Assembly (NCBI RefSeq): GCF_900114355.1
Contig: NZ_FOSS01000006.1
Span: 62,001 to 126,000, forward strand
Source of the DNA: Lysobacter sp. cf310
GTDB taxonomy: Bacteria > Pseudomonadota > Gammaproteobacteria > Xanthomonadales > Xanthomonadaceae
DNA: 64,000 nt
Reading direction: 5' to 3'
Shown: piece after piece, positions 14,641-63,161 of the stretch
Layout of the letters: every line of letters starts with the position of its first letter
Numbering within the stretch: position 1 is the first letter of the stretch
Program-made: the position numbers and the translations under genes
Notes under the pieces: generated by a model
The model's database searches: none
What the model was told of the DNA's origin: nothing
The model's input: only the letters and a program-made list of their open reading frames with translations

Positions 14641-15000
14641 GCTCTTAGCTCCCTCCTTTATCAAAGGAGGGTTGGGGAGGATTTGCTGTTGCTGTTGCTT
14701 CGTCGGCTCGGTCCGAAGGTCAACGACTTCCGCCTGCTGCGCATGCGGGTCACCTCCTCTTGCTTTTAGCTCCCTCCTTTGAAAAAGGAGGGTTGGGGAG
14801 GATTTGCTTTGCCTTGCTATCGCTTCTTCTGACCGAAGGTCAACGGCTTCCGCCTGCTGCGCATGCGGGTCACCTTCTCTTGCTTTTGGCTCCCTCCTTT
14901 GGAAAAGGAGGGTTGGGGAGGATTTGCTTTTGCTTTGCTGCCGTCTGTTCTGACCGAAGGTCAACGGCTTCCGCCTGCTGCGCATGCGGGTCACTTTCTC
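14641..15000 (+). repeat. Three tandem ~120-base hairpin units
   Basis: Three consecutive copies, period 121 then 120 bases. Each has a perfect nine-base inverted repeat CCCTCCTTT/AAAGGAGGG with a three-base loop (14651-14671, 14772-14792, 14892-14912), then TTGGGGAGGATTTGCT, a T-rich spacer, and a conserved stretch containing CCGCCTGCTGCGCATGCGGG. Loops differ (ATC, GAA, GGA) while stems are identical. The region lies between convergent genes. Confidence 0.85.
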
Positions 15001-15135
15001 TTGCTAGCCCAAGAGAAAGTAACCAAAGAGAAGGGCTAGCGTGACCAAACCTCCCCTGCGGGTTCGGGGCTGGCGCGGGGATTTTTCGATAGGACATCCA
15101 TGTCCTATCGAAAAACGGCGCGCGTCCTGCGCGCC
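14993..15135 (+). repeat. Structured repeat module, copy A (four stacked inverted repeats)
   Basis: In order: ACTTTCTCTTG/CAAGAGAAAGT (14993-15003 with 15010-15020); GCTAGCCC/GGGCTAGC (15003-15010 with 15033-15040); a 16-base perfect palindrome with loop CC (15082-15097 with 15100-15115, core CGATAGGACAT); and GGCGCGC/GCGCGCC (15117-15123 with 15129-15135). The first two are mutually exclusive pairings. A second copy is at 62996-63161. A short open frame runs through it from 15041 but is unlikely to be a real protein (see rejected items). Confidence 0.8.
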
Positions 15136-15187
15136 GCCCTTCGGGTCTACGGCTGGTCGGGTGAGTGCGGGGCTTTTGGATTTCAAT

Positions 15188-15231
15188 GCAACAGCAACGG
15201 CAACAGCAGCGGCAACAGCAGCGGCAACGGC
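15188..15231 (+). repeat. GCAACG/GCAACA hexamer microsatellite
   Basis: About seven imperfect copies of a GCAACR/GCAGCG hexamer. The matching place in copy B (63219-63250) has a purer GGCAAC array of a different length, so the tract is probably length-variable. Confidence 0.75.
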
Positions 15232-15296
15232 TGCGTTCGAAGCAACTTCGAGGTCCGGAGCGGGGGTGACTGTTTTGGTCGTCGCTGTCTATAGCC

Positions 15297-17393
15297 TTAC
15301 TGCAAACGTACTTCCAGATCGCGTTTGGCTCCGGCCATGTTGCCGCTGTAGTCCTTGGCGGTGATGCGCAGCGTGTAATCCCCTGGCGGCAGCTCGGTCG
15401 GTACCCATAGGCCGGTCGCGAGCTTGCCGTCGCGGGCGGTGTTGGTCAGCACGTAGCGGAAGCGGGTGATCGCGTTGCCGTGGACGGTGATGCCGCTGCC
15501 GTCGGCGTAGATCACCTTGGGCGCCTCGTCCTCGGACGGCATGCGGTCGAACTGGATGTTGCTGCGTGGCGTCTCGTAGCCCGGCATCGGCGTGCCCGCC
15601 GCGTCCAGCCACTGGTAGCCCAATGCGTACAGGCCGAGCCGGCGCCGCGCCTGGTTGCCGTCGACCTGGTCCCAGGCGTCGACCACGATCTGCAGGCCGG
15701 GCAGGGCGCGCGACACCACGACGCGCCCTTGCTCGCGCTGTTCCAGCGGCTGGGCCGCGTCGTCCAGCAGGGCCACGCGCTCGATCTGCGGCGCGTAGCG
15801 GTCGGCGAACCCCAGGAAGCCCAGGCTGATCGCGTTGCGCTGGTAGCCGTCGGGGCCGACGATCAGATGCACGTGGGCCATGGGGTTGATCGTGCCCAGC
15901 GCGTCGCCGACGCGGAAGCGGGTGCCGCGCGGGACGCGCACGCGTTCGAGCTTGCCGGCTTCGTCGAATAGCGGCTGGAAACGCGCGGGGTCCAGCGAAT
16001 CACCGCGCGCATCGCGGCCGACGCGCATGTGCACGTAGCCCAGCGTGTCCAGGCCCAGGCCTTCGCCGAGCTGGCCCAGGCCCCAGGTCGCGTGCGGGCT
16101 GCTGACCTTGGCGTCGGCGATCGCGAGCACGCGCTCGCCGACGTCGCCGGCGATGTCGAGGCCGCCGTGCAGGTGGTGACGGCTCTCGCCATCGCCGTCG
16201 CCGCGTACCTCGCCCAGGGTGCCGACCACTTCGTGCCAGGCGGTCTGCGGCGCCAGCGGCCAGCGGCCCTCGCTGCGCGGCAGCGGGTTGAGCGGCGAGG
16301 GGCCGACCGCGTCGGCGATCGCGGCCGCGCCGGGCACGGCCGGCGCCAGGCGGTGCACGCGGTAGCCCAGGGCGTCGGCGACGTAGAGCGTGTCGTCGGG
16401 CGCGATCGCCAGCGCCGACGGACGCGCCAGGCGCTGCGCCGAGACCGCGCCGCTGATAGTGTGCATCACGCCGCCTGCGCCGATCTGCAGCACGCGTCCG
16501 CGCGCCATCTCGCCGATGTAGATCACCCCGTCGTGGCTTACCGCCACGCTCAGCGGCCGGCGCAATGCGTCCGCCGGATCCTCCGGGAAAGTTTGCAGCA
16601 GGGTGCTGACCGCGCCGTCCAGGCCGATGCGCCGGATCGCGTTGTTGCGCAGGTCGGCCACCAGCACGCGCCCGTGACGGTCCACCGCGAGCGCGGTCGG
16701 GGTGTCGAAGCGCGCGACCGCGCCGGGGCCGTCCTGATAGCCCGGCCGCTCGCCGCCGGCCAGCGTGCGCACCTGCCCGTCCAGACCGATCACGCGGATG
16801 CGATCGTTGTAGGTGTCGGCGACGTAGACCTGGCCTTTGGCGTCCACGGCCACGCCGGTGGGGCCGTTGAAGCGCGCGACCGCGCCGGGGCCGTCGAGAT
16901 AACCCGCGCTGCCGTCGCCGGCCACGGTGCTGACCGCGCCTTGCGGGCTGATCTTGCGGATCGCGTGGTTGCCGGTGTCGGCCACATACAGATTGCCGGC
17001 CGCGTCCAGGGCCAGGCCCGAGGGCGTGTCGAACGCCGCGGCGGCGCCGACGCCGTCGCGGAAGCCTTCGTCGGAACCGGCGAAGGTGGCGACGCTGCCG
17101 TCGGCGCGGATGCTGCGGATGCGGTTGTTGTCACCGGCGTCGGCGACGTAGAGCGTGCCGTCGCGGCCCAGCGCCAGCCCGTAGGGATCGGCGAAGCGCG
17201 CCTGCGCGCCCGCGCCGTCGCGCCAGCCCTGCACGCCGTCGCCGGCGCGCAACTGCAGCTGCCCGGTCCAGCCCAGCGGCGTGCGCTTGGGGGCGGCGGG
17301 CTTGAGCAGCGCGCCGGGTTCGAACACATAAGTCGCGGCCAGGGCGGCGGCGGTGAGGCCGATCGCCAGGCCCAGCCAAATATTTCGGGACAT
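15297..17393 (-). CDS. NHL-repeat propeller protein with C-terminal M23-like domain
   Basis: 698 residues. Starts with a membrane anchor or signal (residues 5-25). Residues about 45-370 are at least five NHL repeats (patterns such as FxxPxGLALDxxGxLYVADTGNHAIRKI), forming a beta-propeller. After a proline-rich linker, residues about 395-515 look like a LytM/M23 peptidase: His409 and Asp413 in HGGLD and the HVH motif at 507-509 are the zinc ligands and catalytic histidine expected. The last 170 residues look like a beta-sandwich (YTLRITAKDYSGNMA). The start at 17393 is supported by an AGGAA site; the frame is open further upstream. Likely periplasmic or surface-exposed and possibly acts on peptidoglycan; function unknown. 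Confidence 0.75.
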   Translation of the reverse strand: MSRNIWLGLAIGLTAAALAATYVFEPGALLKPAAPKRTPLGWTGQLQLRAGDGVQGWRDGAGAQARFADPYGLALGRDGTLYVADAGDNNRIRSIRADGSVATFAGSDEGFRDGVGAAAAFDTPSGLALDAAGNLYVADTGNHAIRKISPQGAVSTVAGDGSAGYLDGPGAVARFNGPTGVAVDAKGQVYVADTYNDRIRVIGLDGQVRTLAGGERPGYQDGPGAVARFDTPTALAVDRHGRVLVADLRNNAIRRIGLDGAVSTLLQTFPEDPADALRRPLSVAVSHDGVIYIGEMARGRVLQIGAGGVMHTISGAVSAQRLARPSALAIAPDDTLYVADALGYRVHRLAPAVPGAAAIADAVGPSPLNPLPRSEGRWPLAPQTAWHEVVGTLGEVRGDGDGESRHHLHGGLDIAGDVGERVLAIADAKVSSPHATWGLGQLGEGLGLDTLGYVHMRVGRDARGDSLDPARFQPLFDEAGKLERVRVPRGTRFRVGDALGTINPMAHVHLIVGPDGYQRNAISLGFLGFADRYAPQIERVALLDDAAQPLEQREQGRVVVSRALPGLQIVVDAWDQVDGNQARRRLGLYALGYQWLDAAGTPMPGYETPRSNIQFDRMPSEDEAPKVIYADGSGITVHGNAITRFRYVLTNTARDGKLATGLWVPTELPPGDYTLRITAKDYSGNMAGAKRDLEVRLQ

Positions 17394-17608
17394 GCGGTTC
17401 CTGATGACGACGGCCGCGCGCACGGCGGGCCTGGAGCGAACCGGGATTCTAGCCGCGGGTTCGCGCGGCGAGTGGACCGATCCGGCGCGAGAATTCACCT
17501 CTCAACGCAAAGTGGTCGGTTTCGAGCGCGTGAAGCATCGACCCTGCGCCTGCGCTGGTTTAGATTTCGACGCGGCGCGTCGGGATCGCCCGAGGGCCAC
17601 CACTGGGG

Positions 17609-20077
17609 ATGGGAATGCGTCGAAACAGGAAGTGGCTCGCGGCGACGACCGCGGTCGTGATGGTGGCCGCGTTCGCGGCCCCGGTTTTCCATAACGTCAT
17701 TCAGTCGGCGCTGGCGCGCGCGGCGAGCATGCGCGTGCTGCCGCAAGCGGCGCCCGGCGATCCGGCCGAGCCGATCGAGGTGCGCGGCTCGCAGCCCAAG
17801 CGCCCACCGGTCAGCCTGACCATCGCGGGCGAGATCAGCGGCCTGGCGCCGGGCGCGGCTCCGGATTCGATCCTGGTCCGGGTCGGCAACCGCAGCTTCT
17901 CCGGCCAGATTCAGGGCGGCGGCTATGTGGCCACCATCGACGCCCTGGACCCCGCCGAGATGGTCGACGTCCAAGTGCTGTCGCAGCGCGTGCGTTATCG
18001 CAGCGTGGTCGGCAGCTTCGGCAAGCTGATCGCGCATACCGGCGGCGACCGCCGCGTCGACGCCGTCGAGCTGCCGACGCTGCGGGTATCGCCTTGGAGC
18101 AGCGCGCTGGCGTTTCTGGTGAGCAAGGTGCTGGACGGCCGCGACGCGGCGAGCGACCGCGAGTTCGAGCAGGCCAGCCGCAGTCTGCTCGGAGACGACC
18201 TGTTCGGCGCGCGCTCCCTGCTCGAGGGCGTGTCCTCCGGTACGGTCGCCCTTCCGAACGGTTACGCCGATGGTCAGCAATTGCTGGAGAACGAAGCGGC
18301 CTACAGCGCCTGGCTCAACAGCGACAAGCTCAAGCCCGAGGCCGTGTTCGCCCAGGCGGACTATGCGCCCCTGGCGTTCTTGTCGCAGTTGCCGCCGCAG
18401 ACGCTGATGATGGCGCCGATCCAGCGCGACAACTTTCCGGTGTTCTCCAATGCCCCCCAGTTGCTGCTGAGCAACACCGACGGCAGCTACAGCCTGTACG
18501 AAGGCGATTCCGAGGAAGCCCGCCCTACGTACACTGCCCAGCTGGCGGCTTCCGGCGACGTACTGTTGCTGCCGCGTACGCCGCGCGTATACGAACGCTA
18601 CGAAGGCGTGACGCGCATGCGCCTGAGCTTGGACCGCATCGTCCTGCGGCGCCTGTTCGACGGCGAGCATTACGACCTGTGGGCGACCCGACAGGAGTGG
18701 ACCAAGACCGCCGTCGATCAGCCGGCGCTTCCGCCGCAACCCTACTGGTCGATGCGGCTATGGTCGGTCTCCGATCTGCAGGAGGTCGCGCGAGCCGGGT
18801 CTTGGATATCGGCGCCTACCCGGCGCGCTTTGCCGTGGCCTTGCACGCAGCGCACGAGCCAGATGAGCAGCGGCCTGCGCTTGGAAAACTGCGATTTCGT
18901 CCAGCACCGCTTCGATGCGGGCGGCGGCGGCCTGACCGAGGACCACGGCTTCAAAGTCGGCGCCGACATGCAACCGCAGGCGGCGGAGGCAGGCGTCGCG
19001 TTCGCATGGTACGTGGAGGGCCGCGCGCTGGTGGTGGACACGCCGCTGGCCACGCTGCGCTACTGGAGCGTCGACGGCGACGATGCCGTCGATACGGTGG
19101 TCTACATCGCCAACGGCAAGGGCGCCAACGCCGCGCAGACCTGGAGTGGCGTGAGCGGTTCACTAGCGGTGGATAGCCTGCAGTTCGAGGTCGCGCAGGC
19201 CCAAGGCGTCTGGACCCTGGCCTCGGCCGCCACCTTGGCGACGGCGTACCCGAACCCGCATTACACACTGGAAATCCAGCGCGATGCCGGCGGTGTCGGC
19301 GAGCAGCGCCAAGACGGCTATGGGCTGGGGCCGCGTGCCGTGCCCAACAAGTGGGACATGGTGCAAGGACGCGTCTACGACGTCCTCACCACTGCCGAAT
19401 TCGGTCCGGGCCAGGGTAGGCGCAACGTGCACGATTGCGTCAGCGCGTTCGCGGCCGGGGCGCTGACCTGCGCGCCCGCCCGCATCCGCACATTCCGTCC
19501 GCTGCACCGAGTCGGCGACGGCCTGTACGGGATCGAGGAACTGCACATGCAGTTCGAGCAGAAGCCACCGGGTTACGCCGGCGTCTATGATGTGGTCTCC
19601 AGCGCCCGGCCGAACTTCCAGCGTTGCCTGGCCGGCGCCTGCCTGACCCCGCCGGCGCTGCGGCTGCCCGCGGCCCCGGCCCTACGCCTCCCCGCGAGCC
19701 CGGGCGTGGTTGAATCGCGGCCTGTCACCCCCATCCTTGCTGTCGTCCGTCCCGGAAAAACCCGAACCGCAATGCCTATCTACGCCTTCCAGTGCAGCGC
19801 CTGCGGGCACAGCTTCGACCGTCTGCAGAAGCTGTCCGACGCCGATCCCAGCGTATGCCCGTCCTGCGGGGCGGAAGCCGTGGGCCGTCAGCTCACCGCG
19901 CCGCAGTTCCGCCTGGCCGGCGGCGGCTGGTACGAGACCGACTTCAAGAAGGACGGCGACAAGAAGCGCAATCTGGTCGACGGCGGCAGCGGCGCGCCCA
20001 AGCCGGCCGAAACCAAGGCCGAGCCGGCCAAGAGCGAGCCCAAGCCGGCCGCCAAGCCGGCCGCGTCCTCGGAGTGA
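17609..20077 (+). CDS. Secreted or anchored protein of unknown function, in one open frame with FmdB
   Basis: One uninterrupted frame of 822 codons. The first part begins with a signal-anchor (basic MGMRRNRKW, then hydrophobic residues 10-35). It continues as a large extracytoplasmic region with no family I recognise, with cysteines at CDFVQHRF, NVHDCVSAF, LTCAPAR and CLAGACL. From codon 722 the frame is a complete FmdB zinc ribbon (listed separately at 19772-20077). No stop codon separates them, although the proline-rich stretch before FmdB reads like the end of a protein. Either the two are fused, or FmdB is mainly made from its own ATG, or a frameshift hides the natural stop. A second ATG at 17615 is equally possible as the start. 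Confidence 0.6.
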   Translation: MGMRRNRKWLAATTAVVMVAAFAAPVFHNVIQSALARAASMRVLPQAAPGDPAEPIEVRGSQPKRPPVSLTIAGEISGLAPGAAPDSILVRVGNRSFSGQIQGGGYVATIDALDPAEMVDVQVLSQRVRYRSVVGSFGKLIAHTGGDRRVDAVELPTLRVSPWSSALAFLVSKVLDGRDAASDREFEQASRSLLGDDLFGARSLLEGVSSGTVALPNGYADGQQLLENEAAYSAWLNSDKLKPEAVFAQADYAPLAFLSQLPPQTLMMAPIQRDNFPVFSNAPQLLLSNTDGSYSLYEGDSEEARPTYTAQLAASGDVLLLPRTPRVYERYEGVTRMRLSLDRIVLRRLFDGEHYDLWATRQEWTKTAVDQPALPPQPYWSMRLWSVSDLQEVARAGSWISAPTRRALPWPCTQRTSQMSSGLRLENCDFVQHRFDAGGGGLTEDHGFKVGADMQPQAAEAGVAFAWYVEGRALVVDTPLATLRYWSVDGDDAVDTVVYIANGKGANAAQTWSGVSGSLAVDSLQFEVAQAQGVWTLASAATLATAYPNPHYTLEIQRDAGGVGEQRQDGYGLGPRAVPNKWDMVQGRVYDVLTTAEFGPGQGRRNVHDCVSAFAAGALTCAPARIRTFRPLHRVGDGLYGIEELHMQFEQKPPGYAGVYDVVSSARPNFQRCLAGACLTPPALRLPAAPALRLPASPGVVESRPVTPILAVVRPGKTRTAMPIYAFQCSACGHSFDRLQKLSDADPSVCPSCGAEAVGRQLTAPQFRLAGGGWYETDFKKDGDKKRNLVDGGSGAPKPAETKAEPAKSEPKPAAKPAASSE
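19772..20077 (+). CDS. FmdB-family zinc-ribbon protein
   Basis: 101 residues from an internal ATG. Opens MPIYAFQCSACGHSFDRLQK, the standard start of this family, with a zinc ribbon of Cys8, Cys11, Cys29 and Cys32, then GGGWYETDF. The C-terminal tail is rich in Lys, Pro, Ala and Glu. FmdB proteins are small putative regulators normally encoded next to aspS in these bacteria; here aspS follows after the intervening antisense DUF3011 gene. It lies in frame at the end of the 17609 frame. There is no clear ribosome site before this ATG. Confidence 0.75.
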   Translation: MPIYAFQCSACGHSFDRLQKLSDADPSVCPSCGAEAVGRQLTAPQFRLAGGGWYETDFKKDGDKKRNLVDGGSGAPKPAETKAEPAKSEPKPAAKPAASSE

Positions 20078-20084
20078 GCCCCAG

Positions 20085-20104
20085 GCCCCGGAGCGATCCG
20101 GGGC
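20085..20104 (+). terminator. GC-rich hairpin after fmdB
   Basis: GCCCCGGA/TCCGGGGC with a GCGA tetraloop, seven bases after the fmdB stop. There is no T-tract after it, so it may be a stabilising 3' hairpin rather than an intrinsic terminator. Confidence 0.5.
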
Positions 20105-20145
20105 GGTCGCCGCGAGGGCCGGTGCCTATGAGGCGCGCGCCGGGA

Positions 20146-20179
20146 AGCGGCAAAAGCGACGGGCGCCGTTGCGGCGCCC
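20146..20179 (-). terminator. Probable terminator of the DUF3011 gene
   Basis: Read on the minus strand, GGGCGCC/GGCGCCC with a five-base loop (20161-20179) lies 13 bases after the stop at 20192 and is followed by GTCGCTTTTGCC, a short T run. Confidence 0.5.
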
Positions 20180-20191
20180 GCCATGGGCCTA

Positions 20192-21106
20192 TCAGTTACC
20201 GAATTCGCCGCGGCAGCCGCGGCTGACCCAGATCGCCGTGCGCGAGCTGATGCCCCAGGTATTGCCCTGGATGCAGGGCTGCTTGGAGATCTGCCGCAGC
20301 AGGCGCGGCACGCCGTAGCCGGGCGGCCAGGCGCAGGTGGTGGTGCGGTTGTCGACGCTGGAGCAGGTCACCCGGCGCGCGCCGGGTTGCGGCGGCTGGA
20401 TCTGGGCGCCGGCCACGAAGTCGGCGCGGCAGCCCTGGGTGACCCAGACCTGGCCGTTCTGCGACTGCCAGGTGCGGCCCTCGATGCAGGCCGAGCTGGA
20501 CAGCTGGCGCGACAGCCGGGTCTGCCCGTACCAGGGCACCGAGCAGGTGCGCGGGCGGTTGTCGGTGCTCTCGCAGCGCACGGTCTGGCCGACCGGCGGC
20601 ACCGGCGGGCTCAGGCCGGGGCCGAACTCGCCGCGGCAGCCGCCGCTGACGTAGATGTTGCCGTCGCGCGACTGCCAGGTGCTGCCCTCGGTGCAGGGCG
20701 TCTTGGACAGCTGCCGCAGCAGGCGCGAATAACCGGGCCAGCTGGTGCGGCAGGTGCGCGGACGGCCGTCGCTGCTCTCGCAGCGGATCGTGCCGCCAGG
20801 CTGGGGGCCGATCCCGCCGCCGTCGCCGGTCAGGGACTGCGAGATGTCGGTCTTGATCCGGCTGAAGGTCCAGTTGGAGCGGTTGATCTGATCGATATAG
20901 AAGCGCAGCTGGTCGTCCGGAATGCGCCGGCCGTTGGACTGTTCGGAGTACTCCAGGCTGATCACCCGGACCTGGTCGTTGTAGGACAGGTTGCGCAGGT
21001 TTTCGGGCGCGTAGGCCCGCACCTGGGGCTGGGCCAGGACCTGGACGGGAGCGGCCAGGGCCGCCAGACACAACGCCAGCGACAACGGTTTGAGCAGTTT
21101 CAGCAT
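20192..21106 (-). CDS. Secreted protein with three DUF3011 repeats
   Basis: 304 residues. A signal peptide (residues 1-25, cut after VLA) and an N-terminal region of about 80 residues are followed by three tandem copies of about 60 residues (roughly 107-162, 174-230, 243-302). Each has the pattern CxSxDxRxRTC...RLxRQLSxxxCxxGxTW...WVxxGCRxEF, which is DUF3011, often found in xanthomonad secreted proteins. Paired cysteines suggest one or two disulfides per repeat. Function unknown. It is encoded antisense between fmdB and aspS, splitting a pair that is normally adjacent. Confidence 0.85.
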   Translation of the reverse strand: MLKLLKPLSLALCLAALAAPVQVLAQPQVRAYAPENLRNLSYNDQVRVISLEYSEQSNGRRIPDDQLRFYIDQINRSNWTFSRIKTDISQSLTGDGGGIGPQPGGTIRCESSDGRPRTCRTSWPGYSRLLRQLSKTPCTEGSTWQSRDGNIYVSGGCRGEFGPGLSPPVPPVGQTVRCESTDNRPRTCSVPWYGQTRLSRQLSSSACIEGRTWQSQNGQVWVTQGCRADFVAGAQIQPPQPGARRVTCSSVDNRTTTCAWPPGYGVPRLLRQISKQPCIQGNTWGISSRTAIWVSRGCRGEFGN

Positions 21107-21358
21107 GGCCTATCCCCTAGCCGGATGGAGCACGCGGCGGACCGGGCCGCGGCCGGTGGTGCGGGTGCGTACGGGACGGCCAGTGGGCGGATTCGATGTG
21201 GACGAAATCCAGCCGTGGGCGCCGCTGCGGGACAAGTAACCGGCTGGAGCCGTTAAGATAGCGTGTTCCTGGCCCAGGCCCGGACGCGCGCCGGCTCCGC
21301 CCGGCGCCCCCCACCGTGCCGGCCCCGCGCCGGCCGCCGTTTCGATCCCGGAGTTTCC

Positions 21359-23125: not shown

Positions 23126-23144
23126 AGCCGTGCACGGCCTTGGG

Positions 23145-23282
23145 GTAGGAGCGGCGTAAGCCGCGACCGCGCCCCATCGGCCGTCGGCGCCGCGACCACC
23201 GCGCCGGCGGCTGCGGCTTCGTGCCGCGATCGTTTTGGGCCGGTGTATGCGATTGCGCGGTCGCGGCTCACGCCGCTCCTAC
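23145..23282. repeat. Inverted pair of GTAG-type REP elements (BIME)
   Basis: GTAGGAGCGGCGTAAGCCGC... at 23145-23171 and its reverse complement at 23256-23282. Each is itself a short imperfect palindrome around GCGGC/GCCGC, and the pair can fold into a long cruciform. It sits between aspS and the GNAT gene, with the second arm ending 16 bases before the GNAT ATG. Confidence 0.85.
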
Positions 23283-23297
23283 ATAAGGCAGACAGCC

Positions 23298-23825
23298 ATG
23301 AGCGACGACTACCGTATCCGCCGCGCCACCCCCGACGACGCGGCGCTGCTGGCCGACCTGGCCGCGCGCACCTTCATCGAGACCTTCGGCCATCTGTATC
23401 CGCCGCAGGATCTGCGCCGCTTCATCGACGAGGCCTACTCGGTCGAGGCGCAGGCGCGCACCTTGGGCGATGCGGACTACGCGGTGTGGTTGCTGGAGCG
23501 CGACGGCGTCGCGGTCGGCCACGCCCTGGCCGGCCCCTGCGGCCTGCCGCATGCCGAGGTCGCGGCCGGCGACGGCGAGCTCAAGCGCCTGTACGTGCTG
23601 CGCGAGGCCCAGAACGGCGGGCAGGGCGGGCGTTTGTTCCAGACCGTGCTGGATTGGTTGCTGCGCGACGGCCCGCGCACCTTGTGGATCGGCGTGTGGT
23701 CGGAGAACCACGGCGCGCAGCGCTTCTACGCGCGTCACGGCTTCGTGCATGTGGGCGACTACGACTTCGTGGTCGGCGACACCCGCGACCACGAATTCAT
23801 TCTGCGGCGCCCGGCGCAGGGCTAA
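23298..23825 (+). CDS. GNAT-family N-acetyltransferase
   Basis: 175 residues. Starts IRRATPDDAALLADLAARTF, the usual first strand and helix of GNAT folds. LYVLREAQNGGQGGRLF is the acetyl-CoA pyrophosphate loop (Q/RxxGxG/A), and ENHGAQRFYARHGFVHVG is motif B. Substrate cannot be told. The start at 23298 has an AAGG site; the REP arm lies immediately upstream, so its transcript begins inside or before the REP pair. Confidence 0.85.
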   Translation: MSDDYRIRRATPDDAALLADLAARTFIETFGHLYPPQDLRRFIDEAYSVEAQARTLGDADYAVWLLERDGVAVGHALAGPCGLPHAEVAAGDGELKRLYVLREAQNGGQGGRLFQTVLDWLLRDGPRTLWIGVWSENHGAQRFYARHGFVHVGDYDFVVGDTRDHEFILRRPAQG

Positions 23826-23853
23826 GCGTCCGGCCGATGCCCGCCTTGCCGGG

Positions 23854-23996: not shown

Positions 23997-24013
23997 ACAG
24001 CGGTGCGCAAGAC

Positions 24014-50142: not shown

Positions 50143-51954
<1,812 letters not shown>

Positions 51955-52197: not shown

Positions 52198-52210
52198 CTA
52201 GGCTAATCGC

Positions 52211-52786: not shown

Positions 52787-52930
52787 GGGGGGCTCTGTCC
52801 TTGTGTGGGGATGCGGATGGGTGGGAAAGGGCGCCGGATAGGGTTTTTCCGGCATTGCGACGACAATAGGCGCTGTCGCCGCCGATGTGAAATGGTTTGT
52901 GCCTAGCGCTGCGATGCAGACGATCTATCG

Positions 52931-57121: not shown

Positions 57122-57186
57122 CGTTTCGGCGAAGCCTCGTGCGTCGCACCTACTCTCGCACCGGCGGCACAACGCCTAGTCGCTGG

Positions 57187-57206
57187 ATCCCCGCTTCCGC
57201 GGGGAT
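57187..57206 (+). repeat. Short inverted repeat after hrpA
   Basis: ATCCCCGC/GCGGGGAT with loop TTCC, 66 bases after the hrpA stop. GGATCCCCGCTT hairpins of this kind are frequent xanthomonad intergenic repeats; there is no T-tract. Confidence 0.6.
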
Positions 57207-57221
57207 GGAGCACTGGCAAAG

Positions 57222-57240
57222 CCGCACGCTGCGCGTGCGG
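57222..57240 (-). terminator. Terminator-like hairpin after the 57250 gene
   Basis: On the minus strand CCGCACGC/GCGTGCGG then CTTTGCC, ten bases after the stop. It has the same layout as the hairpin after its paralog at 58154-58174, with different stem bases. Confidence 0.55.
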
Positions 57241-57249
57241 GTCATTGCC

Positions 57250-57756
57250 TCACTTGATCCGCTGCACCCTCGCCTTGGGCAGATCCTCATCCACCTGCAG
57301 GAACCAGCGCCCGCTCACGCCCGGCACCACCACGATCGCCGGCGCCTGCATCGGCTTGGGCAGCTTCAGGCTGCCCTTGAGCACGCGCCACTGCTGGCCG
57401 TTCTCCAGCGCGAACACGGTGCCCGGCGCCCACTGCGCGATTTCGCCGACCAGACGGCTGCGGATCGGGCCATCGCCGGCGCCTTCGAGCAGGCCGGCAT
57501 CGTCGCGGCTGGGCGCGACGCTTGCGAACGCCGGAGCGGGAGCCGGCGGCGCGGCCGCGGCCTCGCGTTCGGCGTCCTCGCGCAGCAGGCGGTTGAGCAG
57601 GGCCAGCTGGGCGGGCGTGAGCGCGTCCAGGCCGGTCTCGCGCAATTGTTCGGGGCTGAGGCGGCGTTCGACGTTGCGGTAAGCGGTCTGCGCGCCGGCC
57701 AGGGCGGGCAGCAGGGCGAGCGCGAGCAGGAGGGCGGTGCGGTGGAATCGAGGCAT
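57250..57756 (-). CDS. Small secreted protein of unknown function (paralog 1)
   Basis: 168 residues; signal peptide 1-22 (LLPALAGAQ). A helix-forming segment (LSPEQLRETGLDALTPAQLALLNRLL) resembles that of the next gene, and both end in similar basic Arg/Lys residues (KARVQRIK). Between them: VGEIAQWAPGTVFALENGQQWRVL. No family named; the two genes are clearly related. The ATG at 57756 is chosen because a candidate promoter lies between it and an upstream ATG at 57903. Confidence 0.7.
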   Translation of the reverse strand: MPRFHRTALLLALALLPALAGAQTAYRNVERRLSPEQLRETGLDALTPAQLALLNRLLREDAEREAAAAPPAPAPAFASVAPSRDDAGLLEGAGDGPIRSRLVGEIAQWAPGTVFALENGQQWRVLKGSLKLPKPMQAPAIVVVPGVSGRWFLQVDEDLPKARVQRIK

Positions 57757-57844
57757 GGATTCGGGCCTGGCGACAGCGGAGTCGGGTACAGGCGCGGTCG
57801 CCAGCCGGAGTAAGGCGGCAGCAGGCGGCGCGCTCAGGCCGCCC

Positions 57845-57878
57845 ACACTATTGCGGTGGCGTGACAGTTTCTTGACAC
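57845..57878 (-). promoter_or_regulatory. Candidate PhoB box and -10 element
   Basis: On the minus strand TGTCA repeats 11 bases apart (TGTCAAGAAACTGTCA, 57862-57877), the spacing of a Pho box, followed 11 bases later by TAGTGT as a -10 (57845-57850). No TTGACA-type -35 is needed by such promoters. It would drive the 57250-57756 gene with an 80-base leader. Recognised by pattern only. Confidence 0.4.
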
Positions 57879-58153
57879 GGGTAACGGTGGCGGTGGCCAC
57901 CACAGTCGGGATTGGAGCGCGCGGCCGTCGCGTTGCCGTTTGCTCGTCGTCTTCGCGAAGGCGGGGGAGGGCGCTCGCTGCGAGCCGCTGGTTCGCGCTC
58001 GGCCTGCAAGGAGTTACTTCAGCGCCATCCGGATACGGCGCGACTTGCCGCCCCGGCCCGAGCGCGTGGCGCTCGGGCGTTCGCGAATGCGCGAGCCCAT
58101 GGCTGGCAAGCGCATCCGCTCACTCCGCCTGCGAGGGGCGAGGCAATGGCAAA

Positions 58154-58174
58154 GCCGTGCGCCGCGCGCACGGC
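58154..58174 (-). terminator. Terminator-like hairpin after the 58182 gene
   Basis: GCCGTGCGC/GCGCACGGC with a three-base loop, then CTTTGCC on the minus strand, seven bases after the stop. Stem bases differ from the partner at 57222 while pairing is kept. Confidence 0.55.
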
Positions 58175-58181
58175 CATGGCG

Positions 58182-58676
58182 TCACTTGGTGCGCTGGACC
58201 TTGGCGCGGGCGTTGTAGCCCTGCACCGACAGATACCAGACGTTGCCGATCAGGCCCGGATTGATCTTCACTTCCGGATTGCTGAGCTTCACGCCGGCCA
58301 GCGTGGCGTCGTCGGACTGCTGCCAGACCTGGCCGTTGTCGAGCGTGTACTGGCGGCCGCGGCCGAAACCGCGGAACTCGCCGCTGATGCGCGAGACGAT
58401 CGGTTCGCTGGAGCCGCCGAAGTTGAAGAAACCGCGGTGTTCGGTCTCGATCACTTCCTTGGCGCTCTTGGCGGCTTTGGCGCTCTCGTCGCCGATCTTG
58501 CGGTTGAGCCAGTCGTTGAGGCGGGCCAGCTCCTCCGCGCTGAGCTTGTCCAGGCCCGCGGCCTTGAACTGCTCGGGCGTCATCTCCTGTTGGATCGGCG
58601 GCAGCGATTGGGCGAAAACGGCCAGCGGTGCCAGCGCGAGCAGGGTGGCGACGATCAGCGGACGGGTGCGGAGCAT
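58182..58676 (-). CDS. Small secreted protein of unknown function (paralog 2)
   Basis: 164 residues; signal peptide 1-22 (LAPLAVFAQ). MTPEQFKAAGLDKLSAEELARLNDWL matches the helix of paralog 1; the C-terminus ends RAKVQRTK. The middle (ISGEFRGFGRGRQYTLDNGQVWQQSDD) suggests a beta-rich domain. A TACACT hexamer at 58705-58710 and a GAGGAA site fit the start. Confidence 0.72.
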   Translation of the reverse strand: MLRTRPLIVATLLALAPLAVFAQSLPPIQQEMTPEQFKAAGLDKLSAEELARLNDWLNRKIGDESAKAAKSAKEVIETEHRGFFNFGGSSEPIVSRISGEFRGFGRGRQYTLDNGQVWQQSDDATLAGVKLSNPEVKINPGLIGNVWYLSVQGYNARAKVQRTK

Positions 58677-58704
58677 GTGCTGTTCCTCGGGTCGGTTGGC
58701 GGCT

Positions 58705-58710
58705 AGTGTA
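58705..58710 (-). promoter_or_regulatory. Candidate -10 box of the 58182 gene
   Basis: TACACT on the minus strand, 28 bases before the ATG, with a GAGGAA ribosome site in between. Confidence 0.4.
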
Positions 58711-58752
58711 GACGCTCCCCCAAACCGCTTCGATCCCGATACGCAATCCGCG

Positions 58753-60933
58753 ATGAACGCATCGCCTTCCGCCCCCACTCCGGTCCAGACCGCGCTCGCG
58801 CACGCCTCGGCGGCGGCGATCGCCGGTCCGCTGCGGCAGCGCCTGGAGCAGGCCGCGCAGGACCCGGCCGCCACGCGCGACGCGCTGGACGCGCCGCCGG
58901 TGGTGGCGGCCACCCTGGACGCACTGGGCCTGCTCGGCGCCGACGGCGACACCGTCGCGGCCGCGCTGCTGCATGCCTATCCGGGCTTGGCGGCGGCGTT
59001 GGGCGCGGCCTTGGACAAGCAATTCCCGGCAGTGGCCGCGTTGCTGGACGGCCAGCGCGCCGCCGCCCAGGTCTGGACCCTGCACGCCGAGCACGGCGCG
59101 CGCTCCGGCCACGAAGGCCTGCGCCGCTTGCTGCTGGCGATCGTGCGCGACCTGCGGGTGGTACCGATCCTGCTGGCGCGCCAGCTCGCGCGCATGCGCA
59201 ACGCCGACGCCCTGGCGCCGGACGCGCGCCGCGAACTGGCCGCGCTGACCCGCGACATCCACGCCCCGCTCGCCAACCGGCTCGGCATCTGGCAGCTGAA
59301 ATGGGAACTGGAGGACCTGGCGTTCCGTTACCTGGAACCGCAGACCTACCAGAAGATCGCGCGCCTGCTCGACGAGAAGCGCGGCGACCGCGAGCGCTAC
59401 ATCGAACAGGTCAAGCGCACCCTGCGCGGGGCCTTGGCCGCGGCCGGCCTGCAGGGCGCGGAGGTCGCCGGCCGGCCCAAGCACATCTACAGCATCTGGA
59501 AGAAGATGCAGCGCAAGGACGTGCCGATCGGCGAGCTCTACGACCTGCGCGCGGTGCGGGTGATGGTCGAGGATCTGGCCGCCTGCTACGCCGCGCTGGG
59601 CGTGGTCCACGCGCAATGGACGCCGATCCCCAGCGAGTTCGACGACTACATCGCCCGGCCCAAGCGCAACGATTACCGCTCGCTGCACACCGCCGTGGTC
59701 GGGCCGGAAGGCAAGACCCTGGAGGTGCAGATCCGCACCCACGACATGCACCGCCAGGCCGAGCTCGGCGTGGCCGCGCACTGGAAGTACAAGGAGGTCG
59801 GCAGCCAGGCCGCCGACGCCTCGTTCGACCGCAAGATCGCCTGGATGCGCAAGCTGCTCGACGCCCACGGCGAGGGCGGCCGCGACGGCGGCGACGCGAC
59901 CCTGGCCGGCGAACTCGACACCGAGCTGGTCGAGGATCGGGTTTATGTGCTCACGCCCAAGGGCGAGGTGATCGACCTGCCGACCGGGGCGACGCCGCTG
60001 GACTTCGCCTACCACGTCCACACCGAGGTCGGGCATCGCTGCCGCGGCGCCAAGGTCGACGGCCGCATCGTGCCGCTGGACCACAAGCTGCGCAGCGGCG
60101 ACCGCGTCGAGATCCTCACCGCCAAGACCGGCGAACCGCGCCGCGACTGGCTGGTCGCGGCCAACGGTTTTCTCGCCAGCGGACGTTCGCGCGACAAGGT
60201 CCGGGCCTGGTTCCACAAACTCGACCGCGCGCGCAACGAACAGGCCGGGCGCGAGCTGCTGGACAAGGAACTGCGCCGGCTCGGCCTGCTCGGCGCCGAC
60301 CTGGCACCCGCGCGCGAACGCTTCAATCTGAGCAACGACGCCGAGCTCTACGTGCAGGTGGCGCTGGGCGATCTCGGCCCGCATCAGGTCGGGCGCGCCC
60401 TGCACGAGCACGAACGCGCCGCCGCCGCGCCGCCGCCGGCGAGCGGAGTCACCACCCTGGCGCCGGCCCCGCGCCGGCGCCCCAGCAAGAGCACCGACTT
60501 CACCGTCGAAGGCGTCGGCAACCTGCTGGTGCAGCTGGCGCGCTGCTGCCAGCCGCTGCCGGGCGAGCCCATCGTCGGCTACCTCACCCGCGGCCGCGGC
60601 GTCAGCGTGCACCGACCCGGCTGCGCCGCGTTCGAGCGCCTGGCCGCGGGCCAGCCGCAGCGCGTGCTGCCGGTGGAGTGGGGGCGCAAGGGCAGCGGCT
60701 ACGAGACCGACATCGAAGTACTGGCGCTGGATCGCAAGTGGCTGCTCAAGGAAGTCACCAACCTGATCGCGCAAGGCAACGCCCATGTGGTCAGCATCCG
60801 CAGCGACGTCGAACGCAGCGGCGCGCGCGTGCGCCTGCGTCTGCGCCTGCGGGTGGCCGACTACGGCCAGCTCTCGACCCTGCTGGGCAAGCTGTCCTCG
60901 CTGCCCGGCGTGGAGCAGGCGCAGCGCTGCTGA
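58753..60933 (+). CDS. relA: GTP pyrophosphokinase RelA, synthetase-type
   Basis: 726 residues. N-terminal HD domain lacks the HDxxED hydrolase motif, so it is probably inactive, as in E. coli RelA. The synthetase domain has RPKHIYSIWKKMQRK, YDLRAVRVMV, EFDDYIARPKRNDYRSLHT and HWKYKE; then TGS (DRVYVLTPKGEVIDLP), a zinc-finger-like region with CCQPLPGEPIVGYLTRGRG, and a C-terminal ACT. Makes (p)ppGpp on amino-acid starvation. Divergent from paralog 2. Confidence 0.95.
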   Translation: MNASPSAPTPVQTALAHASAAAIAGPLRQRLEQAAQDPAATRDALDAPPVVAATLDALGLLGADGDTVAAALLHAYPGLAAALGAALDKQFPAVAALLDGQRAAAQVWTLHAEHGARSGHEGLRRLLLAIVRDLRVVPILLARQLARMRNADALAPDARRELAALTRDIHAPLANRLGIWQLKWELEDLAFRYLEPQTYQKIARLLDEKRGDRERYIEQVKRTLRGALAAAGLQGAEVAGRPKHIYSIWKKMQRKDVPIGELYDLRAVRVMVEDLAACYAALGVVHAQWTPIPSEFDDYIARPKRNDYRSLHTAVVGPEGKTLEVQIRTHDMHRQAELGVAAHWKYKEVGSQAADASFDRKIAWMRKLLDAHGEGGRDGGDATLAGELDTELVEDRVYVLTPKGEVIDLPTGATPLDFAYHVHTEVGHRCRGAKVDGRIVPLDHKLRSGDRVEILTAKTGEPRRDWLVAANGFLASGRSRDKVRAWFHKLDRARNEQAGRELLDKELRRLGLLGADLAPARERFNLSNDAELYVQVALGDLGPHQVGRALHEHERAAAAPPPASGVTTLAPAPRRRPSKSTDFTVEGVGNLLVQLARCCQPLPGEPIVGYLTRGRGVSVHRPGCAAFERLAAGQPQRVLPVEWGRKGSGYETDIEVLALDRKWLLKEVTNLIAQGNAHVVSIRSDVERSGARVRLRLRLRVADYGQLSTLLGKLSSLPGVEQAQRC

Positions 60934-61000
60934 GGCGTCTTCGGCGCCGCGCCATCCCGCGCCCGTCGCCACCGTCACTCAGACGCAGCCACGACGGGGC

Positions 61001-61012
61001 TATGCTTCGGCC
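61001..61012 (+). promoter_or_regulatory. Candidate -10 element giving a leaderless transcript
   Basis: TATGCT, then TCGGCC, then the GTG at 61013. Same layout as yheS, ruvB, queE and recQ. Confidence 0.4.
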
Positions 61013-62629
61013 GTGACGTCAGAACGCCCGCCCCGCAACGACCGCAACCCGCCCGCCGGCGCGCACGCGCCGGGTCCCGCGCCGACGCGGATCGAGCCCG
61101 AATTCGGGCGTTGGAACGAGCTGCGTTTCGATCGCCGCGAGCGCCCGCAGCGGCCGCCGGGCCCGCAGCCCTGGTTCGGCTGGGGCGCCGCCGGCGCGGT
61201 GATGCTGGTCCTGCTCGCGCTGGTGCTGCTGCGCCAGCCGCTGTCGGACCGGTTATGGCCGAATTCGCGCCTGCAGCAATTGCGCAGCGATGCCGCGCAG
61301 GCCCTGCGCGAAGGCCGATTGAGTTCCGCCGACGGCCGCGGCGCGCGCCAACTCTACGAGGCCGCGCTGGCCCTGGATCCGGACCGCGACGAAGCGCGCG
61401 CCGGCCTGACCCAGGTCGGCCAGGCCGCGCTGGCGCAGGCCGAACGCGCGATCGCGCAGCGCCGCTACGCCGACGCCCACGCCGCCCTCACCCTGGCCGC
61501 CGAGCTGGCGGTGCCGCGCGCCCAGGCCGAAGCGCTGGAGCGACGCCTGCGCGCGCGCGAAGCCGCCGACGCCGGCCTCGATCAGTTGCTGGCGCAGGCC
61601 GCCAGCGCGCGCGCGGCCGGCCACCTCGACGACGGCGAAAGCGCCGCGCTGCCGCTGTACCAGCGCGTGCTGGCGCTGCAGCCCGAGCGCGTCGAAGCCC
61701 TGGAGGGCCGCGAGGACACCCTGGCCGATCTGCTGCAGCAGGCGCGTCAGGCTCTGGCCCACGGCGATCTGCTGGCCGGCGCGGCGCGCATCCGCCGCGT
61801 CCAGGCCGCCGATCCCGGCCATAGCGAACTGCCCGACGCGCTGACCGACCTCGCGCGTCGCGCCGATGCCGGCCGCGGCGAGGCCGAGCGCGCGCTGCGC
61901 CGCGGTCGCCTGCCCGAAGCCGCCGCAGGCTATCGCGACCTGCTGACGGCGCTGCCCGAAGACGCCGCGGCCCAGCGCGGCCTGAGCGCGGTCGCGACGG
62001 CGTATGCGCAACGTAGCGAACGCCTGGCCGCGGATTTCCGCTTCGACGAAGCCGCTGCCGCCCTGCGCGAGGCCGACGCGATCGCGCCGGGGACGGCGGC
62101 GGTGAGCGAGGCGCGTCAGCACCTGGAACGCGCGCGCCAGTCGCGCAAGCGCCTGGGCGGCGAGCTGCCGGTCGCGCAGCGCCAGCAGCGTCTGCGCCGC
62201 CTGCTCGAGGAGGCCGCGGCCGCCGAGGCGCGCGGCGAACTGCTGGCGCCGCCCGGCGACAGCGCCTACGACAAGCTGCGCGCGGCGCAGGCGATCGCGC
62301 CGCAGGACCCCAAGGTGCGCGCCGCCGCGGGCCGTCTGCTGCCGGCGGCGCGCCGCTGTTTCGAGGACGAGCTGCGCGGCAACCGCCTCAGCCGCGCCGG
62401 AGAATGCCTGGACGCGCGCCGCGCGCTGGAAGGCGAGGGGGCGGCGCTGGGCGATGCGCGCCGGCGCTTGGCCCAGCGCTGGATCGCGGTCGGCGACGAG
62501 CGTCTGGGCGCGGGCGAGCTGCGCGCGGCGCAATCGGCGCTGGACGCGGCGCGCCGCTTGGACCCGGGGGCGCCGGGTCTGGACGACTTCGCCAGGCGCG
62601 TGCGCGCGGCTGCGCCTGGGGCGAACTGA
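61013..62629 (+). CDS. Alanine-rich single-span membrane protein with TPR-like repeats
   Basis: 538 residues. A hydrophilic, proline-rich start, one membrane helix (about 55-74), then about 430 residues of helical, Ala/Arg/Glu-rich repeats with TPR character (ARQLYEAALALDPDRDEARAGL, ALPLYQRVLALQPERVEALEG). Probably inner-membrane with a large domain outside or inside; partner unknown. The GTG start is inferred from the promoter spacing; no ATG or ribosome site supports another start, and a later start at 61201 would remove the membrane anchor. Confidence 0.6.
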   Translation: MTSERPPRNDRNPPAGAHAPGPAPTRIEPEFGRWNELRFDRRERPQRPPGPQPWFGWGAAGAVMLVLLALVLLRQPLSDRLWPNSRLQQLRSDAAQALREGRLSSADGRGARQLYEAALALDPDRDEARAGLTQVGQAALAQAERAIAQRRYADAHAALTLAAELAVPRAQAEALERRLRAREAADAGLDQLLAQAASARAAGHLDDGESAALPLYQRVLALQPERVEALEGREDTLADLLQQARQALAHGDLLAGAARIRRVQAADPGHSELPDALTDLARRADAGRGEAERALRRGRLPEAAAGYRDLLTALPEDAAAQRGLSAVATAYAQRSERLAADFRFDEAAAALREADAIAPGTAAVSEARQHLERARQSRKRLGGELPVAQRQQRLRRLLEEAAAAEARGELLAPPGDSAYDKLRAAQAIAPQDPKVRAAAGRLLPAARRCFEDELRGNRLSRAGECLDARRALEGEGAALGDARRRLAQRWIAVGDERLGAGELRAAQSALDAARRLDPGAPGLDDFARRVRAAAPGAN

Positions 62630-62718
62630 GGGCGGCGCGGCTTTGCTTTCGTCGGCTTGTCACGAAAGTCAAAGATTCCGCCTGCTGCGCACCCGGGCTA
62701 CCTTTTCTTGCTTCTGGC

Positions 62719-62915
62719 TCCCTCCTTTGAAAAAGGGTGAAACCGTGCGGCTTACGAACCGCAAGTTCGTGCACGGCTGAGCGCCGGCAGGCTCTTGCTC
62801 CTAGCTCCTCCTTTGGAAAAGGGTGAAGTCGCGCGGCTTACGAACCGCAGGTTCGTGCACGGCTGAACGCCAGCAGGCTCTTGCTCCTAGAGCTCCCTCC
62901 TTTGAAAAAGGAGGG
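62719..62915 (+). repeat. Copies of the CCCTCC hairpin and bulged hairpin, locus B
   Basis: Two tandem copies of the 14587-14620 type hairpin (62746-62779 and 62826-62859, the second with changes that break the outer stem), then a perfect CCCTCCTTT/AAAGGAGGG unit (62895-62915). Confidence 0.75.
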
Positions 62916-62995
62916 TTGGGGAGGATTTGCTTTTGCTTTGCTTTCGTCTTTTCTGACCGAAGGTCAAAGGCTTCCGCCTGCTGCGCATGCGGGTC

Positions 62996-63161
62996 ACTTT
63001 CTCTTGCTAGCCCAAGAGTCCGTCTGGATTCCCTTCGGTCAAAAGTAACCAAAGAGAAGGGCTAGCGTGACCAAACCTCCCCTGCGGGTTCGGGGCTGGC
63101 GCCGGGATTTTTCGAATGGACATCCTTGTCCATTCGAAAAACGGCGCGCGTCCTGCGCGCC
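62996..63161 (+). repeat. Structured repeat module, copy B
   Basis: Same order as copy A. GCTAGCCC/GGGCTAGC at 63006-63013 with 63059-63066; a 15-base palindrome with loop TCCT (63108-63122 with 63127-63141, core CGAATGGACA); GGCGCGC/GCGCGCC at 63143-63149 with 63155-63161. A 26-base insertion breaks the first inverted repeat. Two stem pairs of the palindrome differ from copy A in compensating fashion. Confidence 0.8.

Follow-up and report, generated by a model that had tools for sequence, protein, structure and literature searches.

Within the 64,000-nucleotide window of the Lysobacter sp. cf310 genome (contig NZ_FOSS01000006.1, positions 62,001 to 126,000), the whole stretch of DNA analysed here, two copies of a hairpin-rich module are found at positions 14993–15135 and 62996–63161. 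Their positions, their lengths (143 and 166 bases) and their identical orientation are as originally predicted. When aligned, the two copies agree at 137 positions and differ at 6, and copy 2 has one insertion of 23 bases. Also in line with the prediction, the main palindrome, H3, contains ATAGG/CCTAT in one copy and AATGG/CCATT in the other, with pairing kept, and the small open frame that runs through it from 15041 and 63067 changes Ile to Asn and Ile to Phe. Both copies had been placed between convergent genes; this is correct for copy 1 and probable for copy 2, whose left-hand frame is assigned to the minus strand by one crude gene caller and to the plus strand by the other. That frame has no Pfam match on either strand and an indecisive codon composition; in G014, a close relative whose chromosome is complete, the plus-strand version keeps its stop codon in frame at the corresponding position. 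At the cut-off, an Rfam scan of the window returned a tRNA as its sole match and neither module copy.

The components of each copy are listed in Table 1. Copy 1 is preceded by a tandem array of ~120-base units that includes the first hairpin of the table. The sequence GGGTTGGGGAGG, allowing up to one mismatch, has 12 matches in the examined stretches, all on the same strand as the module; the match at C4:43,015 belongs to the host flank and is found at the empty site too.

Table 1. Components of the two module copies, in window coordinates
Feature	Position	Strand	Remarks
Upstream hairpin CTCCCTCCTTTG..AAAGGAGGG + TTGGGGAGG, copy 1, extra tandem unit	14770..14801	+	within tandem array
Upstream hairpin, copy 1	14890..14921	+	travels with module
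H1, copy 1	14967..14990	+	two-sided changes in 5/8 pairs
H2, copy 1 (TCACTTTCTCTTG..CAAGAGAAAGTAACC)	14991..15024	+	two-sided changes in 3/10 pairs
H2b, copy 1, GC-rich hairpin with variable loop	15050..15080	+	by eye from alignment, uncounted
H3, copy 1, main palindrome	15082..15115	-	minus-strand loop ACA-UGGA-UGU; two-sided changes in 10/14 pairs
H4, copy 1	15116..15136	-	minus-strand loop CAGGACG, then TTTTT; two-sided changes in 5/9 pairs
CCCTTCGGG mini-hairpin, copy 1	15137..15145	.	CCC..GGG pairs invariant in A1, middle bases variable
Hexanucleotide tail (AGCAAC/GGCAAC)n, copy 1	15193..15228	+	
Upstream hairpin, copy 2	62893..62924	+	
H1, copy 2	62970..62993	+	
H2, copy 2	62994..63050	+	split by insert
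23-base insert, copy 2	63019..63041	+	same site in copies from several species
H2b, copy 2	63076..63106	+	
H3, copy 2	63108..63141	-	minus-strand loop ACA-AGGA-UGU
H4, copy 2	63142..63162	-	minus-strand loop CAGGACG
CCCTTCGGG mini-hairpin, copy 2	63163..63171	.	
Tail (GGCAAC)5, copy 2	63219..63248	+	

Both stretches are members of an old family of dispersed intergenic repeats that shows concerted evolution. The window genome (G000) contains 30 module copies, a duplication far beyond chance, and three relatives contain 39, 32 and 26; a covariance-model search of 151 genomes from the order detected the module in 36. The conserved aligned module spans ~180 bases and begins with GCTTYCG. Orthologous copies are 83.8% identical and non-orthologous copies from different genomes 84.3%, as opposed to 92.3% and 91.1% within genomes (8 orthologous pairs recognised by their flanks, the 30 copies of G000 and 15 of the 39 copies of G014). 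A literature search, at the level of result lists, found nothing on this hairpin repeat.

For the analysis of pairing, near-identical copies were thinned out at a similarity above about 93%, which reduced 102 copies to 40, and one 192-base copy (L052) was excluded; three over-long and two truncated matches in the resulting 39-row alignment were re-cut. Paired cells are complementary in 95.7% of cases, compared with 37.4–47.5% in slid controls. Double changes occur at 23 of the 41 pairs, a value as high in none of 500 shuffles, and two-sided changes affect 192 cells as against 50.6 in the shuffles. One of the five covariation measures, further pair types, shows no excess (35 versus 38.4). Up to four Watson-Crick pair types are seen per position among 121 model matches. 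These data show that H1, H2, H3 and H4 are ordered hairpins maintained by paired changes. Because H3 occurs in essentially two versions within the window genome, the comparison of the two window copies amounts to about one evolutionary event, and it is the wider family that carries the weight. The claim that a nucleic-acid structure and not a protein is conserved is thus borne out, by the strong covariation and by the length of the H3–H4 segment, which differs modulo three in 11 of the 39 copies. A coding role for the small frame, although it is open in both copies, was rejected as barely conceivable in view of these length shifts and of the radical residue changes that leave pairing intact. 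Wobble pairs are found in 115 cells when the minus strand is read and in 15 when the plus strand is read, with 82 of the 115 coming from a single H2 position; in H3 and H4 together there are 9 minus-strand and 6 plus-strand wobbles in 1956 cells, versus 9 in 156 in seven tRNAs from the retrieved sequence. The near-absence of wobble in H3 and H4 looks more like pairing at the DNA level.

Read on the minus strand, the loops of the two 3' hairpins, H3 and H4, keep the form C-A-(N)-G-G-A-N-G. Their variation is confined to positions that the CsrA/RsmA consensus leaves free, and all four bases are found at both free positions. Such CA(N)GGANG loops are present in 162 of 378 module hairpins on the minus strand and in 1 on the plus strand; the corresponding numbers for 916 control hairpins from loci of at least 4 kb are 7 and 1. 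The stems differ among Lysobacter, Dyella, Dokdonella and Pseudomonas, yet the loop letters on one strand are constant. H3 has the full (A)CA-N-GGA-N-G(U) and H4 the CsrB-like CAGGA(C/U)G, so both present GGA in a hairpin loop, as expected of a CsrA/RsmA-type site, and a csrA gene is present in all 9 genomes tested. The available part of one report gives a SELEX consensus for CsrA of RUACARGGAUGU, mostly in six-base loops closed by AC/GU, and a CsrB repeat of CAGGA(U/A/C)G (PMC7652899).

Module sites lie between convergent genes in 30 of 42 cases, compared with 51 of 202 (crude gene calls), so the count proposed with the original prediction does reveal an enrichment. Divergent pairs are few, and tandem contexts, in module orientation, were called ++ in 7 cases and -- in 1 by the same crude calls. 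This placement would suit a bidirectional terminator in which H4 with TTTTT stops the minus transcript and H2b with ATTTTT the plus transcript, and copy 1 does have a terminator-like match (15134–15120, minus strand). As a general account of the family, we consider this unlikely. The T-tract after H4 is present in 26 of the 39 non-redundant copies and missing from 13, most of which pair GC-rich bases there; a scan of 2 kb gave 3 sites where 2.1 were expected; and the conservation of the loops is left unaccounted for. The original suggestion of a terminator fits some copies.

Module orientation follows replication in one Lysobacter-type clade. All 39 copies in G014 follow the direction of replication, with a switch at dnaA and across dif; the arms were placed by these two landmarks because the GC skew of the sampled stretches was too weak. 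No contig of G000, G012 or G013 has copies on mixed strands, the one exception being a switch near dnaA in G000. Lineage-specific copies beside orthologous module-free sites all share the same polarity. An all-one-way orientation in G014 was unexpected, and our leading guess is insertion into the lagging strand. Gene direction was rejected as the cause: convergent pairs are symmetric, and it cannot account for the polarity of copies that lie between them. GTAG REPs in the examined stretches are not polar (15 plus and 15 minus in the right arm, where the module is polar). Three features go beyond the original prediction: GGA loops that are specific to one strand, evolution in concert and the replication polarity.

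Other genomes do not share this polarity. Type-A copies in G001 number 24 minus and 10 plus in the left arm and 15 minus and 13 plus in the right arm, a count based on the 62 pattern matches, out of 198, that have no more than one mismatch and on a terminus set half-way, as no dif match was found in that genome. In G003 the strands are nearly equal, with at least 60 forward and at least 59 reverse copies, and pairs in both orientations are among the matches listed. By eye, and with a loose pattern, orientations look mixed in Dyella jiangningensis and G160 as well. Outside the genus, neighbouring arms mostly face each other (18 plus-then-minus clusters versus 1 minus-plus). One module pair, at locus L172, encloses a 271-codon frame.

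The polarity, together with the inverted pairs of G001 and G003, raises the possibility that the module is a non-autonomous DNA element of the IS200/IS605 or REPIN kind that moves single-stranded at replication forks, its folded hairpins being recognised by an enzyme encoded elsewhere and its likeness to CsrA sites being incidental or secondary. We regard this as a serious although doubtful alternative, one that could also be combined with a CsrA/RsmA function. It would be consistent with the 39 of 39 polar copies of G014 and the unmixed contigs of its relatives, with the shared polarity of the copies beside empty sites and with the almost wobble-free H3 and H4, and IS200/IS605 orientation is itself reported to follow host replication (PMC5371812, in the part available). 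However, the module lies beside none of 10 loci of Y1_Tnp, the transposase family examined; no sharp ends, target duplications or exact insertion ends can be read at the empty sites; the G001 and G003 forms are not polar; and a DNA enzyme would not predict a CsrA-type loop. The same Y1_Tnp loci (~1.5 kb on each side, 4 genomes) also bear on the idea of a classical REP mobilised by a resident RAYT (TnpA-REP). The module is dispersed, palindromic and intergenic, and Y1_Tnp genes are present, but GTAG-type REPs occur in 4 of the 10 loci and the module in 0, a loose regex match in L153 being judged a chance one because the module motif is absent; moreover, it is the module and not the GTAG REPs that is polar. 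We therefore treat the RAYT explanation as largely refuted and very improbable. Finally, a palindromic repeat might have no selected function, with template switching keeping its arms complementary and gene conversion keeping its copies alike, which would fit the concerted evolution and the small number of one-sided changes. This seems quite improbable, and is already strained by the one-strand loop letters fixed across four genera, the scarcity of divergent gene pairs and the strict polarity in one clade. On the whole, the original prediction is supported in part: a nucleic-acid structure is conserved and the module is a dispersed intergenic repeat, but it gives no sign of being the REP of resident RAYT-type transposases.

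The reading that we favour, with a probability of roughly one half, is that a dispersed, probably mobile element puts CsrA/RsmA-type hairpins at the 3' ends of genes, its transcription, binding and mobility being inferred. Run-on transcription from the neighbouring gene would read the minus strand of the module, so that the 3' untranslated RNA would end in the two adjacent hairpins H4–H3, which a CsrA/RsmA dimer could grip; H4 with the T-tract after it could also terminate the transcript. At convergent sites of this Lysobacter-type clade, the reading gene would be the lagging-strand, head-on gene. Sites of this kind, numbering dozens to hundreds, would together act as a distributed sink for CsrA/RsmA or as a set of handles in 3' UTRs. 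More tentatively, the element may be non-autonomous and multiply by inserting into a fixed strand when the fork passes. In favour of the CsrA/RsmA reading are the covariation, the CsrA-type loops of the minus strand, the RF01731 matches in Pseudomonas, the presence of csrA, the convergent context and the excess of minus-strand wobble. Several observations count against it. The H3 and H4 stems are long, and CsrA may be hindered from binding where a stem is very stable (PMC7652899, in the part available). Both are nearly wobble-free on either strand. Where arms face each other outside the genus, transcription from a neighbouring gene would reach the strand without GGA first. CsrA/RsmA function offers no reason for strict replication polarity.

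In its furthest form, which we consider speculative and rather unlikely, the hairpins at gene 3' ends bind CsrA/RsmA and were spread over Lysobacter-type chromosomes, in dozens to hundreds of places, by a mobile element whose orientation follows replication. New copies would enter only one strand at the fork and head-on genes would read them at convergent pairs in the single-arm genomes, so that replication would set the layout of a distributed RNA-protein sponge. If the repeats are transcribed, models of CsrA/RsmA titration in these bacteria would change. A ~180-base repeat that obeys replication beside non-polar GTAG REPs is in any event a clear-cut test case for either fork-coupled insertion or selection on chromosome polarity.

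REPs are defined by a GTAG/GTCG-type tetranucleotide and a short hairpin. The module resembles REPs and REPINs as a dispersed intergenic palindrome that forms inverted pairs in G001 and G003, but it begins with GCTTYCG, is much longer, was not found beside the Y1_Tnp genes examined and is polar in one clade. With IS200/IS605-type transposons it shares hairpins and, in G014 but not in G001, an orientation tied to replication; in contrast to them, no encoded transposase was seen in it and no defined ends or target site were found. Bacillaceae-1 RNA (RF01690) matches above the cut-off at one Dokdonella locus, on the opposite strand; the strand of that family is itself uncertain and its reverse complement bears a CsrA motif (PMC4333381, in the part available), but the match involves only 1 of 18 loci and the lineage and context differ. 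The loops CAGGA(U/C)G and ACANGGAUGU are those of CsrB repeats and SELEX ligands as far as the available sources describe them, although CsrB, RsmY and RsmZ are single sRNA genes while the module is scattered over many intergenic sites and the one copy scanned has no sigma-70-like promoter.

In architecture the module also resembles TwoAYGGAY (RF01731), an orphan Rfam motif for which, as for the reverse complement of Bacillaceae-1, CsrA binding was predicted in 2014 (PMC4333381, in the part available): two adjacent GGA-loop hairpins, H4 followed by H3, share one strand, the minus strand. RF01731 scores above its gathering cut-off of 43 bits at 6 places (43.4–45.9 bits) in 5 of the 18 loci scanned, and these 5 are among the 14 Pseudomonas loci of the set. 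Four of the matches coincide with a listed model match, on its minus strand, and the other 2 are beside one. A G003 copy scores 33 bits, neither window copy matches at the cut-off, and the region of copy 1 (14700–15300) gives none even at E ≤10, which also speaks against the CsrA/RsmA reading. Two AYGGAY loops are not present in the window copies, whose minus strands have AUGGAU and AGGAC in copy 1 and AAGGAU and AGGAC in copy 2; in Pseudomonas sediminis only H4 has an AYGGAY loop. The module is larger, with H1, H2, H2b and the tail, and occurs in dozens of dispersed polar copies, whereas TwoAYGGAY is not described as a repeat in the parts of the literature examined. The comparison ties this orphan motif to an abundant dispersed repeat and thereby supplies many natural copies for testing it.

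Direct reading of both stretches showed the two copies as originally predicted: they are 143 and 166 bases long, share 137 identical positions with 6 mismatches and differ by a 23-base insertion in copy 2, and the main palindrome (hairpin H3) shows the paired exchange that was described. By DNA search, the window's genome (G000) has 30 copies that are 120 bases or longer. A 20-base motif, allowing up to 3 mismatches, matched 30 times in this genome (6 plus, 24 minus) and 39, 32 and 26 times in the close relatives G014, G012 and G013, respectively; the reversed control pattern gave 0 matches. A covariance search, as proposed with the original prediction, detected it across the order in 36 of 151 genomes (the window's own counted) and 23 of 65 genera. 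A set of 100 loci from Lysobacter, Dyella, Dokdonella, Luteimonas, Pseudomonas and others contains 121 matches to the covariance model.

Parts of the module in plus-strand order, and genes beside the two window copies
Feature	Location	Remarks
Upstream hairpin	first part, plus strand	CTCCCTCC..GGAGGG with TTGGGGAGG; tandem at times
H1	3' of upstream hairpin, plus strand	
H2	after H1, plus strand	contains conserved GTAACCAAAGA
H2b	after H2	GC-rich hairpin, loop variable
H3	after H2b	palindrome of the original prediction
H4	immediately 3' of H3	
Mini-hairpin	after H4	CCC..GGG
Tail	3' end of module	hexanucleotide repeat, e.g. (GGCAAC)n
Copy 1 neighbours	14993-15135	ABC-type ATPase gene (plus) / NHL-repeat gene (minus); convergent
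Copy 2 neighbours	62996-63161	frame without Pfam match, probably plus / glycosyltransferase-type frame (minus)

Copy 1 is preceded at 14770-14990 by a tandem array of roughly 120-base units (CTCCCTCC hairpin, GAAGGTCAA and H1) that share its orientation, as though the element's 5' portion had been amplified. The insert TCCGTCTGGATTCCCTTCGGTCA (63019-63041) occupies the identical point of H2 in copies of several species. In locus L116 a GTAG-type REP, another palindromic repeat, is broken by a comparable piece of 23 bases; the insert resembles a very small insertion unit in its own right. The H2b loop (alignment columns about 129-143) is a small hypervariable patch with doublet or triplet variation among otherwise near-identical copies. 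The tails (15193-15228, 63219-63248 and in other copies: CAACGG, CAACCG, CAACTG, CAACAG and so on) are often uniform inside one copy and differ from copy to copy; at one empty site the junction lies near a GCAAC of the target. Among the loci printed, modules of the genomes G001 and G003 mostly form inverted pairs, in G001 with the tails outermost. In locus L172 (1696-2853) a 271-codon open frame lies between the modules of an inverted pair, which is possibly a composite element.

A hand-written structure of 41 pairs was evaluated on an alignment of 39 non-redundant copies (1588 paired cells). Standard pairs fill 95.7% of the cells (83.9% in shuffles), two-sided changes occur in 23 of the 41 pairs (15.3 in shuffles), and none of 500 shuffles was as high in either measure or in the number of cells with a two-sided change. 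The latter, 192 against 50.6 in shuffles, is the covariation expected under the predicted selection on structure. Moving the partner by 1-3 columns left 37.4-47.5% pairing, and further pair types, a fifth measure, numbered 35 and were not above the 38.4 of the shuffles. RNAalifold recovered mostly the same helices from the alignment alone. Single positions with up to four Watson-Crick pair types occur among the 121 matches, whose alignment was fitted to the covariance model and is hence biased towards its structure. Folded as minus-strand RNA, both window copies outperform shuffled sequences by 4.5-5 standard deviations and leave their two GGA loops open.

H3 and H4 differ in their stems and share a minus-strand loop, C-A-(N)-G-G-A-N-G, with all four letters at each of the two free positions. 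Of 378 perfect module hairpins with at least 6 pairs, 162 have this loop on the minus strand and 1 has it on the plus strand. Control hairpins, taken from the remainder of loci 4 kb or longer and over 700 bases away from any match, give 7 and 1 of 916. The H3 loop has the form of the SELEX ligand of the RNA regulator CsrA (RUACARGGAUGU, mostly a six-base loop with AC paired to GU), and the H4 loop has that of the CsrB repeat, CAGGA(U/A/C)G (both as given in PMC7652899). All 9 genomes tested have a csrA gene.

Excluding the two loop-closing pairs, wobble pairs number 115 if the minus strand is folded versus 15 for the plus strand (4027 cells), with a single H2 position supplying 82 of the 115. 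In H3 and H4 wobble is very rare (9 minus and 6 plus of 1956 cells); seven tRNAs, for comparison, have 9 in 156. This scarcity speaks for pairing that may be kept at the DNA level, or for recent homogenisation. Eight orthologous copy pairs of G000 and G014 average 83.8% identity, no closer than non-orthologous pairs between the genomes (84.3%), and within-genome identity is 92.3% and 91.1% (30 and 15 copies, respectively). Judged from these identities, copies are homogenised or replaced inside each genome.

The predicted location between convergent genes holds for copy 1 and is probable for copy 2, where two gene callers place the left frame on opposite strands; its codon composition is symmetric between strands, and it is probably plus because its stop is kept in G014. 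Convergent gaps are likewise enriched at copies in G000 and G014 when genes are called crudely: they hold 30 of the 42 copies with both neighbours called (from 45 loci, of which 3 lacked one called neighbour; 15 of the 39 G014 copies are included) against 51 of 202 background gaps of at least 150 bases in sampled stretches, some holding copies (p about 3e-8). Divergent pairs were called at 4 of the 42, and divergent calls are similarly few in the rest of the family.

In the single contig of G014, dnaA lies at 343,557 and a dif-like site, located by pattern match, at 2,718,447. All 29 right-arm copies are plus and all 10 left-arm copies minus. Strand is uniform within each G000 contig apart from C7, where the switch falls between 292,250 and 587,617 (dnaA at 296,289), and no G012 or G013 contig is mixed; in these three genomes uniformity was scored per contig, and the replication arm was placed independently for a minority of contigs. 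The copies are partly non-independent, as 8 of 28 G000 copies with usable flanks share flanks with the G014 copies compared. In one syntenic block G000 and G014 each have two copies where the other has no module, and all obey the polarity; at one such module-free site the G013 flanks are 97-98% identical. GTAG-type REPs from the same stretches are non-polar, with 15 on either strand in the right arm. GGGNAGGG is strongly biased to the leading strand there (right arm 61 plus and 14 minus, left arm 15 minus and 0 plus), as expected of KOPS-type signals. Polarity is absent from G001 (left 24 minus and 10 plus, right 15 minus and 13 plus), from G003 (60 forward, 59 reverse, paired) and, by eye, from G160 and Dyella jiangningensis; we take it to be a trait of the single-arm clade.

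The most economical function, to which we give a probability of about one half, is that of a putative pair of CsrA/RsmA-binding hairpins in 3' RNA that run-on transcription would produce. We prefer it because the strand-specific loop is conserved on covarying stems and agrees with the CsrA/RsmA site, and because two sites lie side by side at a 3'-end location. It does not account for the polarity. Strand-specific, fork-coupled entry into the chromosome would, and IS200/IS605 elements offer a precedent (PMC5371812), but neither a responsible enzyme nor clean element ends were found in the loci and empty sites examined. Alternatively, polarity could stem from selection for chromosome polarity, or from loss of copies through inversion-causing recombination between opposed copies.

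CsrA binding has been proposed from motif matches for two Rfam families, TwoAYGGAY (RF01731) and the reverse complement of Bacillaceae-1 (PMC4333381). TwoAYGGAY scores above its cut-off 6 times, in 5 of the 18 loci given, and these five belong to the 14 from Pseudomonas. For 4 of the hits the position is on the minus strand of a model match in the list; the other 2 adjoin such a match, where the opposite arm is expected. Pseudomonas sediminis scores 42.5 and 39.8, slightly under the cut-off of 43, and G003 falls further below. Bacillaceae-1 matches the opposite strand in one Dokdonella locus. The two families recognise one type of hairpin pair from opposite strands (L204, 7012-7074), which fits the doubt over the Bacillaceae-1 strand noted in PMC4333381. 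Because neither window copy matches TwoAYGGAY at cut-off, and copy 1 does not even at E up to 10, we describe the element as a relative in design rather than a member. The open-access literature, in partial view, yielded no published account of a dispersed, concertedly evolving intergenic repeat of this kind or of its replication polarity; the hairpin pair itself is a variant of an already known type.
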